DNA of 64,000 bases from Haematococcus lacustris. Taxonomy: Eukaryota > Chlorophyta > Chlorophyceae > Chlamydomonadales > Haematococcaceae. Under the pieces are notes generated by a model, which saw only the letters and a list, made by a program, of their open reading frames with translations, had not been told where the DNA came from and did not search any database. Every line of letters begins with the position of its first letter. Position 1 is the first letter of the stretch. Where the stretch lies: assembly GCA_030144725.1 (NCBI GenBank), contig JASKMD010000036.1, forward strand, positions 684,491 through 748,490. Direction: 5' to 3'. This document shows positions 33,022 through 38,022 of this stretch, in pieces. Made by a program: the position numbers and the translations under genes.

Positions 33022-36000
33022 ATGTCACCGGCGCAGGAAGCAAGGCTACTTGACAGTACAGACAGCTCGATGGAGAAAGCGGACAACAAGCCCGCCCAAC
33101 AGGATGGACCATCAAAGGCTCACCCGCTGCTAGCCGCATCCTACTGCGCATTTAACATCGTCGTGGCCTGTGAGCACCTCTACCCTGCACACCAGCCCGG
33201 GATGCACAAATTGTAGCAGTGGGCTTTTGGCTCTGTTCTTTCAGGCATGATCGTGTTCGCAAACAAATGGGTATTCCAGCACTACAATTTCAAATTCGTC
33301 TTCGCCCTGACCTGGATTCACACGGTACGCCCCCCACCTCTCTCCAGTACAGAGCGTTTTGTTGTCTTGGACAACCACAACACATGTTTAAGACGTGCAA
33401 CAGGTGTTCACTTGGGTTGGCATGAACGTACTGAGCCAGATTGGCTTCTTCGTACCCAAGAAGATCCCCAATGTCAAGCTCATACCCATAGCACTGGGCT
33501 ATGTGGGGTACATTGTCCTGTGCAACGTGTCTCTCAACATTAACAGCGTCGGTTTCTATCAGGTGAGCAGTGGCGGCAGGGGCCGTGTCGATGTTGCCAG
33601 CCATTCAGAGCGTGTAACACCCATCTTACATGCTCAATGCACGCTACATTGCTGCAAGGCTTACACAGCTCGACACATTGCCGCATGCAGATCATGAAGA
33701 TTGCCATTGCGCCGACAGTGGTGGTCATGGAGTTTTTCATGTTCAACAAGCTGCCCAGCCGCCTCATGATCTGCTCTGTCCTGGTGGTGTGCGCGGGCAT
33801 CACAGTGGCGACTGTGTCCGACACGGTGGCAATCAGCAACTCAATGGGCCTGATTGTCGGAGTAGCAGCCACCCTGGTGACTGCGCTGTACCAGATCTGG
33901 GCAGGCTCGAAACAGAGGGAACTCCAAGCCAACAGCTCCCAGCTGCTGCACGCCTACACTCCGCACGCAGTATGGCTGCTGGGCGTGCTGGTGCCCATCT
34001 TCGAGCCCATTGGCTGGAAGGATGCCGCGCCAGGGACGCTGCTGGGGTACCAGTTCACCTGGGATGCCGTGGCAGCCATCGTCATCTCAGCCATGCTAGG
34101 CATCCTGGTGTCCCTGTCCACCTTCCTGGTCATCGGGACCACCAGCAGCCTCACCTACAACATCGTGGGGCATCTGAAGACAGTCATCATCCTGACTGGA
34201 GGTGTCCTTGTGTTCGGGGTGAGAGGTTTGCAGGCTGCAGGTTGAGCTGGCTGCGGGAGGCGATGTCACTCACTCTCGCACTCCCAAAGGGCACTTCCAA
34301 AGAGAACTTCCAGAAGGGGCACTCCCAAAGAGCACTTCCAAAGAGCAATGGACTTGGACAGCATGTCCCTTAGCGCCGCTGTTGCCCCTGAACTGAGCTG
34401 CAGCCTGAGCTTGAGGCATATCACCCCAATGGGTCAGTCCGCCACCCCAGTTGGGTGGGTCAGTCCGCCACCCCAGGTTGCACACACGCACACACACCGC
34501 ACACTTTGAAGGTGACAGAGGGTGGGGCCAGGAGAGGGGACTGCTGCATGACCCCTGCGACCGGTTAGATATTATTGCATTTCTATAAATTGAACTAGCA
34601 CCCTCCAGCACCTTGGCCCTCAACCTTGAGCCTTCATTGCAGTCGAACACACTAATTGTGGACCACTACAAAACAGTGTTTTTGTCTGTGTGGTGTTCCC
34701 ATCGCATGGCATGCTCATGGCCTACACATGGCATACACATGGTCACGGTCGCCTACCACCTATAGCATTGCCTGACCCGTTAGGGCTACACCGTAGAGTT
34801 GGCATGACAAAACATGCACTAATTGAAAGCTGACGACAGCTTAAAGTGGAAGGGAGCACACACTACTGTGCCACAGCAGGCTGCTGCTGCTGCTGGGCCT
34901 CAGGTGGCTTGTCTCGCAGCCGCTTGTAGCCCAGGCCAGGGTACTCCTTGCCCTTGGCTGGCAGCTTCCCCTGCTCTGGCCAGAAGCACAGCTCCAGTGG
35001 CCGCCACTTGCTCTCCCCAATGCGCTGCATGTTCAGCGCTGCATTGCAGTCCCGGTCTACCCACCTGCCTGGCTGCGGTGCTGGCTTGGCTTTGGCTGCC
35101 TTGCCCTTGCCCTTTGTGGGCTCAGCTGCCTCTGGCTCAGCCTTGGTGCGCTTGCTGCGCTTGGCTGGCAGGGGAGTGCTGGGCCCAGGCTCTGAGGCTG
35201 CTGCCTGTGTGGCTGCCTGGCTGCTGCGTGGGGCCTGTGGGGGCTTGCGGGGGGCCACTACCGGGCACCACATCATGCCCCGCACCGGCTGATCACGCTG
35301 CTGGCTCCAGGCTGGGCGCAGCAGGCGTGGTTCCACCTGCCCTGCTGGGGGCTTCCAGCCTGCAGGCCTGGTGGCCCTGCGCTTGTTCAGCTGCCTCTCA
35401 CAGGGCTGCTGGCCATTCACCGCTGAGCTGACCCGGGTGGTGCGGTGCTCATCCACAAGCACCACCCTGCCCCGCCGCTGGTCTGTGCCCCTGGGCCTGC
35501 ACACCACCTTGCGGCAGGCCCGCAGCACCGCATCAGCACCCCAGCCTCCCCCAGTGCCAATGCTAGCTGCGCCAAAGAAGACCACCAGCTGCTTGGCACG
35601 CCCATGGCGCTCCATGGACACCTCAGCCATGTCCTCCTCCAACTGCAGCCATGCACACAAGGCACAAGGCACAAGGTGGCTGACATGGTGGCACCAGGTT
35701 AGGCATGGCACAGTCAGCTACTCTTCCCACCATCTCAGTCCCTGACCTCTCCTCTCTCCTACCCACCCTCACCTTCTTGAAGAACTGCTCCATTGTCCGG
35801 TCCTGAGCTCCGTACAGCCTCAGCCGCTGCTCTGCCCACTTGGGGTCCAGGTACACCTCCCACACCGCATCCCAGGTGGCCAGGGTGACGGTGATGTGCT
35901 TCAGGTTGGCCACGAGGGAGGTGCCGGCTGAGCTTGCTGCTGCCAGGTGCTGAAGGTGGGGCTTGATGGGTGCCAGCCACCGCTCTGTGTCACGGCGGGC

Positions 36001-38022
36001 ATTGTTCAGGCCGCTGCCATGCTTGACCTGGCCCTTGGTCAGCTTCCACCGGCGCAGCTGGTCTGCCAGCAGCTGCCCTGTCCTTGGATCCCACACCCCT
36101 GAGGCTGCACTGACTGCCTGGGTGACGCCGGGGTCAATGCCCACCCCAATCTGCGTGGCTGGGTCAAACACAAACTCACGCTGCTCAGCTAGGCCCTTGC
36201 CAATGCGGGGCAGTCCCAACTCATGGGCCACTGCTGCTGCACCTGGGGCTGCCGCTGGGCTGCTGTTGCTGCTGGAGGGGCCTGCTGCTGAGGGTGCGGC
36301 AGGAGGGGTTGGGAGGGGGCGGGTGTAGTGCACACATACACTAACTCCGTCCGTCTCCACCGTCCGTTCAAACTCAAATCCCTGGTTGGCCAGCTGCTTC
36401 GTGCTGAACCACCTGTTCCAATGGTTGCTGCGGGCTGGCTCTGTGGTGAACACCTCTGCTGTCTCCCTTGTGAGCCCCAGCTGCTGGCACACCCCATGCA
36501 ACACCCTGCTGTCCACCTTGATGAAATGGATTCCTACCCTGGCCAAGGGGGTGAGGGTGAAGGGGGTTGGGCAGGTCAGGACCCTAGGACCTACCCTACG
36601 CCCGCCACGCTTTGGCTGCCCTGGCACGGGTGGGGTGGGGGGCTGCAGCATCATTGGGTCTTCGCTGTCCAGGGGCATGGGTGGCCCAGTGGGAGCTGCT
36701 GGTGGGGGGTGGCGGGCAGCAAGGCGGGCACTGGGTGGGCGCAGTGTGGGTGGTGCTGGGGCAGGCTCTGGCTCTGGCTCAGGCTCAGGGTCTGGGTCTG
36801 GCTCAGGCTCCCAATCCATAGCCAAGGCTGCTGGCTGGGCAGGGACACGCAGGGGGAGCGGGGGCAAGGGGGCAGCATCCAGTGCACGGGGAGGCTGCAC
36901 GGTTGGAGGTGTGGGGGCGTTGCGGAACCCCGGGGTGGGGTAGCCCACCAGGCATGTCAGAAACATCCGCAACACAAACAGTGACGCGATTACGCGGAGC
37001 TGAGAGTGGATCTCGGCCCTCAGCTGGAAGTGCGCCTTCAACTTGCGCTTGGTTTTCTTGCACCCGCGCAGCACGGCGCCACCCGGGACTTTAATGACCT
37101 GCGGCCAAGCAACATGACAGGCCGGGAAACAATGCGGGGACACTAACTAGTCGGGGACACAAACAAATAGTGCGGGGGCATACAAGGCGGGGGTGCGCAC
37201 CTGTCGGCGCTGGGTTTTCCATTCAGCCCTTCGCTCCTCGCGTTGTTTACCTGGAGGGGCGCTTGGACCTGCGCTGACACAGTTGCAACGGACCACACTG
37301 CGACTACGACGAACCTCGTTTACGCGGGCTTTCAATCGGAAGCGGCTCTTGCTCCGCGGCACTGGGCCGCTTCCTCGGAGGCATTGCGCCACTAGGCTCG
37401 TATCTACTAACACCTGCTGGTACCTACTTATACCCAGGAGGCGATGTCACTCACTCTCGCACTCCCAAAGGGCACCCTCCAGCAGGGCCCAGCAGGGCAA
37501 GCAGCAGGGCTGGGTAGACCGCAGCCAAGTGCTGCATGTGGCTGGGGTCTTTTGCACCATGATTCTCTTGGAGCCACATGTTGATACAGCCCGACCCCTT
37601 TCATGCTGCAGCGGCATATGTGGGTGGTGGTCATAGAGTGTGGTGCATACGGGCCATGCTGCTACCACTGCTGCAATGCAGCAAAAGGGCCCACTCCCAA
37701 GGCAGTGCCCACACAGTTGTGCTTCATGTTACACCACTGCCCCTTGCCTGGCCTCACCATCATCACCATCATCACATGGCCTCCAACAAACATGGCATTG
37801 TTGCAGACTCAGCGCCATAAGCAATTACACTGACATCACGTTGCTGTTGCTGGCTGGCTGCAGGACGGCATGCCTCTCAAGCGCTTCTTGGGCATCTGCG
37901 TGGCGATGTGCGGCATTGCCTGGTACACTCAGCTGCTGACCACTCAGTCCTCCCCAAGCCCTCGGCAACCAGTGGCAGCAGGGGCAGCAGTAGGGGACAA
38001 GGCCAGGAGCGTTGGGGCATAG
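33022..38022 (+). CDS. SLC35E3-like nucleotide-sugar/triose-phosphate translocator
   Basis: Multi-span carrier of the TPT/nucleotide-sugar transporter family, 357 aa (human SLC35E3 is about 313; plant relatives include UDP-sugar transporters). Likely in the Golgi or ER membrane; the substrate cannot be told from sequence. Five exons join in perfect phase: 33022-33169, 33245-33324, 33404-33562, 33691-34218 and 37864-38022. Motifs: MIVFANKWVF in the first helix, LCNVSLNINSVGFYQ, IMKIAIAPTVVVMEF, LYQIWAGSKQRELQANSSQL, TTSSLTYNIVGHLKTVIILT, and GGVLVFG joined across the last intron to DGMPLKRFLG and GIAWYTQLL. The last intron is 3.6 kb, against 75-185 bp for the others, and contains a Fanzor gene on the other strand. 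Start: the ATG at 33022 gives an acidic cytosolic N-terminus ahead of the first helix. Confidence 0.92.
34256..34293 (+). repeat. 38-bp direct repeat bounding the Fanzor segment, left copy
   Basis: Starts GGAGGCGATGTCACTCACTC and continues 18 bp further. Perfectly repeated, in the same orientation, at 37437-37474. It sits about 40 bp inside the transporter intron. Followed by short diverged echoes of its own end (CTCCCAAAGAGCACTTCC, 34300-34345). Confidence 0.95.
34294..34862 (-). ncRNA. Fanzor 3' flank, candidate region for its guide (omega-type) RNA
   Basis: In TnpB and Fanzor loci the guide RNA normally overlaps or follows the 3' end of the nuclease gene and runs to the element end. Here that region lies between the Fanzor stop (34863) and the left 38-bp repeat. 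I see two small hairpins just past the stop: AAGCTG-ACGA-CAGCTT (34827-34842) and GCATG-acaaaa-CATGC (34802-34817). There are also two copies of CACTAATTG and a dispersed repeat at 34451-34562. The RNA itself is inferred, not seen. Confidence 0.3.
34451..34562 (+). repeat. Dispersed repeat, copy 2
   Basis: Same element as 26620-26733, same orientation, here within the transporter intron between the left 38-bp repeat and the Fanzor gene. Confidence 0.85.
34863..37413 (-). CDS. Fanzor (eukaryotic TnpB-like RNA-guided endonuclease)
   Basis: Three exons join in phase 0: 37201-37413, 35773-37098 and 34863-35642, 772 codons in all. The N-terminal exon is basic and has no ATG; its upstream limit is uncertain. 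Exon 2 opens with VIKVPGGAVLRGCKKTKRKL, typical of the Fanzor/TnpB N-terminus, then a Pro-rich and acidic (EPEP) linker, then GIHFIKVDSRVLHGV, ETDGVSVCVHY and RuvC-I GVGIDPGVTQAVSAASG (D about 393). A helical block follows (WKLTKGQVKHGSGLNNARRD; LRLYGAQDRTMEQFFKKV). Exon 3 carries VVFFGAASIGTGGG, RuvC-II VLVDEHRTTRVSSAVNG (E about 578), a Cys-poor zinc-ribbon region, a Lys-rich probable nuclear-localisation stretch, RuvC-III WVDRDCNAALNMQRIG (D about 711) and a poly-Gln tail. All three catalytic acids are kept and no internal stop is seen. Established: Fanzors are RNA-guided DNA nucleases. Inferred: this copy is intact. Confidence 0.9.
37437..37474 (+). repeat. 38-bp direct repeat bounding the Fanzor segment, right copy
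   Basis: Perfect copy of 34256-34293. It lies just upstream (about 25 bp) of the first open codons of the Fanzor N-terminal exon. After it the intron continues, without recognisable genes, to the acceptor at 37863. Confidence 0.95.

Follow-up and report, generated by a model that had tools for sequence, protein, structure and literature searches.

Among described systems, the most instructive for the locus reported here come from another green alga, Chlamydomonas reinhardtii, in which CRe-1, CRe-2 and CRe-3 are described as Fanzor1 genes carried by non-autonomous Helitron2 elements, with duplications of 7-19 bp directly after TTTT (Bao and Jurka 2013, PMC3627910). The same account gives a Fanzor motif, D-X(125,275)-[TS]-[TS]-X-X-[C4 zinc finger]-X(5,50)-RD, which it terms strictly conserved. 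A second description places the Fanzor fingerprint in a DPG at RuvC I and an alternative glutamate six residues before the zinc-finger position, the zinc finger itself being contained in many TnpBs and Fanzors (PMC10711439). For the assayed enzyme SpuFz1, the REC region is described as reading the target motif and holding the heteroduplex (PMC10432273). In Auxenochlorella, the most abundant repeat is reported to encode a Fanzor and is called an uncharacterized element (PMC12633428).

The window analysed here, a stretch of 64,000 nucleotides from the 308 Mb assembly of Haematococcus lacustris, holds a Fanzor-type nuclease gene lying antisense within an intron of a transporter gene. This arrangement, which the original prediction had proposed, was borne out by the RuvC motifs, a TnpB profile, a match to Pfam TPT and the exon join. 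Our reading, to which we assign a probability of roughly 0.8, is that the gene belongs to a non-autonomous, Helitron2-like element with a divergent Fanzor1-type nuclease gene, present in many copies, and that the copy in this TPT-type intron is a decayed, passive one that has lost a conserved block. The host features are as follows.

33694..34218, plus strand: host exon stretch 5' of the intron, from the Pfam TPT match and exon join
34219..37863, plus strand: intron of the TPT-type host gene, 3,645 nt, GTGAGA...TGCAG
34256..34359, minus strand: solo left end with no element body, 104 bp, in the same host intron

The upstream host exon piece matches Pfam TPT at 21 bits (E 0.00024), which is below the curated cut-off of 30. 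The exons flanking the 3.6-kb intron join in phase, as had been claimed, the junction over 34219-37863 reading GGVLVFG followed directly by DGMPLKRFLG. The nesting had also been called unusual, a point now weakened: the element has very many copies, and other family gene models carry further domains, with 13 of the 120 family proteins listed (of 817) having another precomputed Pfam domain within the same model. A model from another listing, P0134, is a second TPT transporter model joined to a family segment, so that nesting in TPT-type genes may not be singular. Kinase, TPT and squalene/phytoene synthase domains are joined to Fanzor-family segments in further H. lacustris gene models, and such combinations probably arise from automatic annotation fusing nested elements with host exons. 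The solo left end lies on the splice-donor side of the Fanzor element within the host intron; a 129-bp stretch drawn from it and from the DNA upstream of it (34403-34278) agrees at 98% with the extended 5' end of the copy L034.

The window's own protein is annotated as QJQ45_016532 of H. lacustris (P0008, 701 aa) and is identical across the searched region. The three minus-strand segments originally put forward (37413-37201, 37098-35773 and 35642-34863) do join into 772 codons plus a stop with no inner stop, and the three RuvC acids, D393, E578 and D711, are all present in IDPG, DEHR and RDCN. This frame opens with GTG. An ATG in the same frame, 17 bases ahead of ATG 37384, is present in 16 of 20 fetched copies, the codon at its position being ACG in the window copy, L031, L034 and L035 and GTG in L048. 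Starting instead at ATG 37384, a four-exon model gives 747 aa with no inner stop and GT-AG introns of 46, 102 and 130 nt, and is consistent in alignment with the NCBI models P0033, P0016 and P0008; the 46-nt intron between exons 1 and 2 is a prediction of this model. Its numbering, used below, is that of the 772-codon frame minus 25, giving D368, E553 and D686.

37315..37384, minus strand: exon 1, ATG, MPPRKRPSAAEQEPLPIESPRKR/G; protein start of the same kind as in NCBI model P0033
37201..37268, minus strand: exon 2, from the splice model; resembles the start of P0016, P0020 and P0033
35773..37098, minus strand: exon 3, with RuvC I (D368, DPG) and the deletion junction
36642..36649, minus strand: deletion junction, flanks with the short microhomology GCAGC; the window copy lacks 155 residues of the fuller protein
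34863..35642, minus strand: exon 4, with the alternative glutamate E553 and RuvC III D686

When the protein is compared with the two published definitions, it agrees with one of them. The DPG at RuvC I is present (D368 in IDPG), as is the alternative glutamate (E553 in EHRTTRV, followed by S at the first-cysteine position), and the RD of RuvC III (D686 in DRDCNAALN) completes the triad and matches the TnpB profile. By pattern, DPG and the alternative glutamate occur together in 113 of 215 family proteins, many of which are fragments or chimeras. The C4 zinc finger is absent from the window copy, with SSAV at its place (the first CxxC reading SxxV), and the motif of PMC3627910 is accordingly not found. 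The glutamate motif is recognizable in 177 of the 215 family proteins, where it is followed by CxxC in 0 of 177 and by S at the first position in 174 of 177; judged by motif, the zinc-finger cysteines are lost family-wide. With the finger motif of PMC3627910 lacking and the fingerprint of PMC10711439 present, we call the family Fanzor-like by fingerprint and not a member by motif.

The original prediction had looked to a profile search for a Fanzor or TnpB match, and the outcome was divided. A TnpB profile made from 90 viral-contig frames, with 430 shuffled or reversed sequences as controls, matched P0008 at E 2.9e-4 (the best control reached 0.3) and 184 of the 215 family proteins at E<1e-3, mostly via RuvC III. 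Profile-profile comparison with TnpB gave, in modest values for single comparisons, a probability of 68 and E 4.8e-5 for the RuvC half, where motifs I-III are collinear, against 53.5 and E 1.3e-4 for the whole protein and 0.2 and E 0.3 for the N half. PF07282 found no match in the window copy, either in a 730-aa model (E<=1) or in P0008 (E<=0.5); it scored above cut-off in five of eight relatives scanned (P0121, P0068, P0122, P0009 and P0092, some of them chimeric models) and at E<=0.1 in 9 of the 44 members of family set A2, the best E being 0.02. A Pfam search with the window protein and family led nowhere, as did a search of a phage collection; profile searches against solved structures returned no match or two unrelated chains at E 0.83; and the nearest NCBIfam model for the 44 members was TIGR01765 (putative transposase N-terminal domain), in 8 of 44 with a best E of 0.022. 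By these sequence measures, the window gene is real and Fanzor-like.

A protein search with the window protein found 817 matches at E<=1e-3 among 7,999 candidates scored. Among the matches listed from this search (120 of 817) and from two further family searches (116 of 116; 25 of 25), all were from H. lacustris and none from outside Haematococcus. Among the titles and abstract openings listed, none described this Haematococcus Fanzor family, and in the main text of the H. lacustris genome paper (PMC7617258) the words 'Fanzor' and 'Helitron' have 0 occurrences.

The limits of the element were set from its copies and its flanks.

34606..37471, minus strand: mobile element, 2,866 bp; in gene sense, left end CCTTTGGGAGTGCGAGAG..., right end ...CCAAGGTGCTG
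37472..37479, minus strand: left copy of the direct repeat, GAGGGTGC, behind TGCTG
34598..34605, minus strand: right copy of the direct repeat, GAGGGTGC, behind TGCTG
37480..37483, minus strand: target tetranucleotide GCTG, left of the direct repeat
34606..34609, minus strand: terminal GCTG of the element, equal to the target motif, from the right-end comparison
37437..37475, minus strand: left-end block, 39 bp, found alone also at 34256-34294
34615..34632, minus strand: subterminal hairpin near the right end, GGCTC-loop-GGGCC

The right boundary, at window position 34606, is common to 26 fetched right ends with unrelated sequence beyond it, except where copies have common flanks (L038 and the second L040 copy; L039 and L047). 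The left boundary is set by the direct repeat and is ambiguous by 4 bp: the GTGC half of GAGGGTGC fits the family left end too, so that 4-8 bases of the direct repeat are certain. The 13-mer TGCTGGAGGGTGC has two occurrences in the window, one at each direct-repeat place, and the empty site before insertion would read CCCTGCTGGAGGGTGCTAGTTC. The right-end 20-mer has 1,367 exact places in the assembly and the left-end 20-mer 547, of which 496 continue with TGG as in the element and 51 otherwise, while 34 bases of the left end with up to 3 mismatches find 789 places; the ratio of right to left ends is a rough one, since the two ends may have diverged to different degrees. The 39-bp direct repeat (34256-34294 and 37437-37475) was considered as an insertion-site duplication and rejected, being the element's own left-end block with TGG next in 496 of 547 cases. 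Many 5' ends among L031-L050 open with an array of units resembling GTGCCCTTTGGGA, and the length of this array varies by copy.

A flanking direct repeat of 8-13 bp accompanies 17 of 27 right ends, the other 10 having none. The context before these 17 repeats is GCTG in 13, ACTG, GCTT and GCTC in one each and none such in one, where two of the 13 GCTG copies have common flanks and are probably one event. When up to 20 random flanks per right end were drawn as controls, the mean best match over the 17 rows was 0.8-7.7 bases, individual draws gave 8-25, and for 6 of the 17, among them the window copy, the best control equalled or exceeded the repeat in length (up to 25 bases, in repeats). The weight of the repeat evidence rests on the preceding GCT, which the match criterion did not require. 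The direct-repeat search also gave a 13-base match for L035 and L044, two short copies of roughly 200 bp.

These features bear on the class of the element. Variable short duplications lie behind a fixed tetranucleotide (13 of 17 after GCTG), as in CRe-1/2/3, right ends exceed left ends (1,367 against 547 exact 20-mers), and a 3' subterminal hairpin is present; from this anatomy we infer that the element is Helitron2-like. The Helitron Rep domain PF14214 has 18 matches in the genome, five of them within open frames of 344 codons. PF14214 places include G000:C22:7543126, C56:4581401 and C143 (three places). An autonomous Helitron partner with the element's ends was not found, the pieces L171-L173 of two PF14214 loci containing neither AAGGTGCTG nor GACATCGCC. 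Helitron right ends generally follow the rule CTRR, from which the right end of this element departs. Both observations would suit a transposon of another class, not Helitron-like, that combines a fixed GCTG target with variable short duplications. We regard this as a minority possibility that deserves to be kept in view, as the variable duplications behind a fixed tetranucleotide, the right-end surplus, the 5' truncation and the internal deletions together fit what is described for CRe-1/2/3 (PMC3627910).

The gene had been taken as apparently intact, and this part of the original prediction did not hold: a conserved block of 155 residues is deleted at a junction peculiar to this copy, the family has no zinc-finger cysteines and the frame starts with GTG. 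Fuller copies carry extra DNA at window 36642-36649, amounting to 690 bp in L034, 1,425 bp in L036, 606 bp in L038, 602 bp in the second copy of L040 and 763 bp in L043; these five come from copies within 20 loci fetched by left ends, in which most remaining copies have different internal gaps, often larger. This additional DNA can be read as an intron with an exon part on each side. In L036 (1896-3322) this intron has a long tandem repeat with ALPCP in translation, and in L034 and L038 it has short GACCT-type repeats. The missing block corresponds to residues 189-343 of P0064, which are 35-40% identical to three second-subfamily proteins across 145-152 of the 155 residues; being common to two subfamilies at this level, the block is a conserved part of the protein. 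A search with the P0180 stretch spanning it found 25 proteins, 14 weaker ones among them at 30-44% identity. With up to 3 mismatches allowed, the genome contains a single instance of the 30-mer across the junction, and by this measure the deletion is private to the window copy. Its position ahead of RuvC suggests that the block is the REC region; a complete REC and WED region before RuvC is thus not found in the window copy, the 155 conserved residues being absent and their assignment to REC putative. The fuller copies are also damaged, L043 having lost part of exon 4 and L038, L040 and L046 having in-frame stops in the window's register, so that fuller does not mean intact.

The substitution pattern adds a further aspect. 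Across three exon parts, comparisons of the window copy with others gave dN/dS values of 0.12-0.44, which fits an ancestry of working proteins. In the same parts, 6 synonymous changes and 1 non-synonymous change are private to the window copy; the private changes of other copies vary, those in exon 3b being for example 0 to 6 for L036 and 8 to 6 for L043. The 6:1 ratio does not resemble decay and may predate the deletion. Taken with the family-wide loss, these values suggest that Fanzor-type proteins without the zinc-finger cysteines have multiplied under purifying selection.

If the ratio is instead read at face value, together with 747 open codons and all three RuvC acids, it would favour an intact, working Fanzor nested in the host gene, in a compact form that dispenses with the missing block. 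We consider this quite improbable: the block is maintained at 35-40% identity between P0064 and the three second-subfamily members, the stretch of P0180 across it leads to 25 proteins, and the deleted junction exists once. The same purifying signature could mark a Fanzor element that the host has domesticated as a gene with a new role, for example in silencing or RNA binding. Such an origin would have to be reconciled with element ends, a flanking repeat and a private deletion that are all still visible, with a copy that is one of very many, and with the matches listed (120 of 817; 116 of 116; 25 of 25), all H. lacustris and giving no orthologue elsewhere; we give it even less credence. The missing block might finally be an intron or an annotation artefact and not a deletion, given that fuller copies have a short-tandem-repeat intron inside the missing stretch. 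This explanation has the least to commend it, as the window's genomic DNA itself lacks the 602-1,425 bp at the junction, both sides of which are coding in fuller copies.

It had further been proposed that the locus could reveal a guide RNA and its target. The right end and the bases beside it can indeed be read exactly; the structural side of the proposal found no support, and the putative target motif recurs at the end of the element itself. Two features are relevant.

34606..34862, minus strand: 3' non-coding stretch, candidate guide-RNA scaffold, conserved among copies
34586..34605, minus strand: right flank, predicted guide position under the TnpB rule (after PMC10432273 and PMC10711439)

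Under the TnpB rule, a guide would begin at 34605. Folding of the final 150 nt was no more stable than that of shuffled sequence (z -0.61, 49 of 200 shuffles as good or better), and a two-sided change was seen in 1 of 33 consensus pairs, the hairpin at 34615..34632 having 4 consensus pairs and one two-sided change across 21 sequences. In the genome, the 24-base right-flank pattern occurs at its own locus and, with 3 mismatches and probably by chance, at one further place. C182 was tried as a paralogous empty site and rejected, with only short chance matches (E 1.1 and above) beyond the 24 bases.

Donor protection in TnpB and Fanzor systems is usually a matter of a missing target motif. As the element ends in GCTG, a resident copy would present both motif and guide, and the occurrence of GCTG at the element end and at the target site poses a question of self-targeting. 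One could speculate, and we hold it to be very doubtful, that the element's own GCTG defeats donor protection and that, if GCTG is the target-adjacent motif, Fanzors cut their own right junction, starting a one-ended, 3'-initiated transposition that leaves variable duplications. In a weaker form of the idea, deleted and finger-less variants may still bind right-end RNA and so act as a brake on full copies.

For the Helitron2-like element with a decayed nuclease gene, we suggest the following course. The element inserted downstream of GCTG and left the short direct repeat that is seen with its ends, within a family that has more than 1,000 right ends. At some point the window copy lost its 155-residue block, an observed loss for which the short-homology deletion and the domain name are our interpretation. 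Full-length relatives probably act like assayed Fanzors, with right-end RNA and flanking bases guiding the RuvC nuclease to the empty site, and by analogy with known Fanzors such guided cutting would favour retention or spread of the element. The window copy itself is most likely a passive passenger, spliced out with the host intron and presumably devoid of guided nuclease activity of its own. What appeared to be a striking single locus is, on this account, one member, probably decayed, of a Fanzor element family that is very large in this green alga. With flanks, repeats and a target motif readable at so many exact right ends, rules for guide and target can be tested on genome data.

Compared with known systems, the window family resembles CRe-1/2/3, as these are described, in having a multi-exon Fanzor1 gene within a non-autonomous element with a 3' hairpin, and in its right-end excess, 5' truncation, internal deletions and variable duplications after a tetranucleotide. 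The two differ in that tetranucleotide, which is TTTT in CRe-1/2/3 and GCTG in Haematococcus, and in extent, with 255 loci counted in the published description against 1,367 exact right-end 20-mers here. Unlike CRe-1/2/3, the Haematococcus family has lost its zinc-finger cysteines, and ends common with an autonomous Helitron were not found in the pieces compared. SpuFz1 and the other assayed Fanzors, in the account of Saito (2023, PMC10432273), are like the window copy in their RuvC acids and in a guide expected from the right flank; SpuFz1 differs in keeping its CCCC zinc finger and REC, in its target motif CATA and in demonstrated cleavage (PMC10432273). Auxenochlorella offers a likeness by description, as a green alga with a Fanzor-carrying repeat (PMC12633428). 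Prokaryotic TnpB is collinear with the window family by profile over RuvC I-III, and the family departs from it in having the DPG and the alternative glutamate in place of the usual TnpB signatures given in PMC10711439, and in having no zinc finger. What is new in detail is the Haematococcus family itself, with GCTG as its target and again as the last four bases of its right end.
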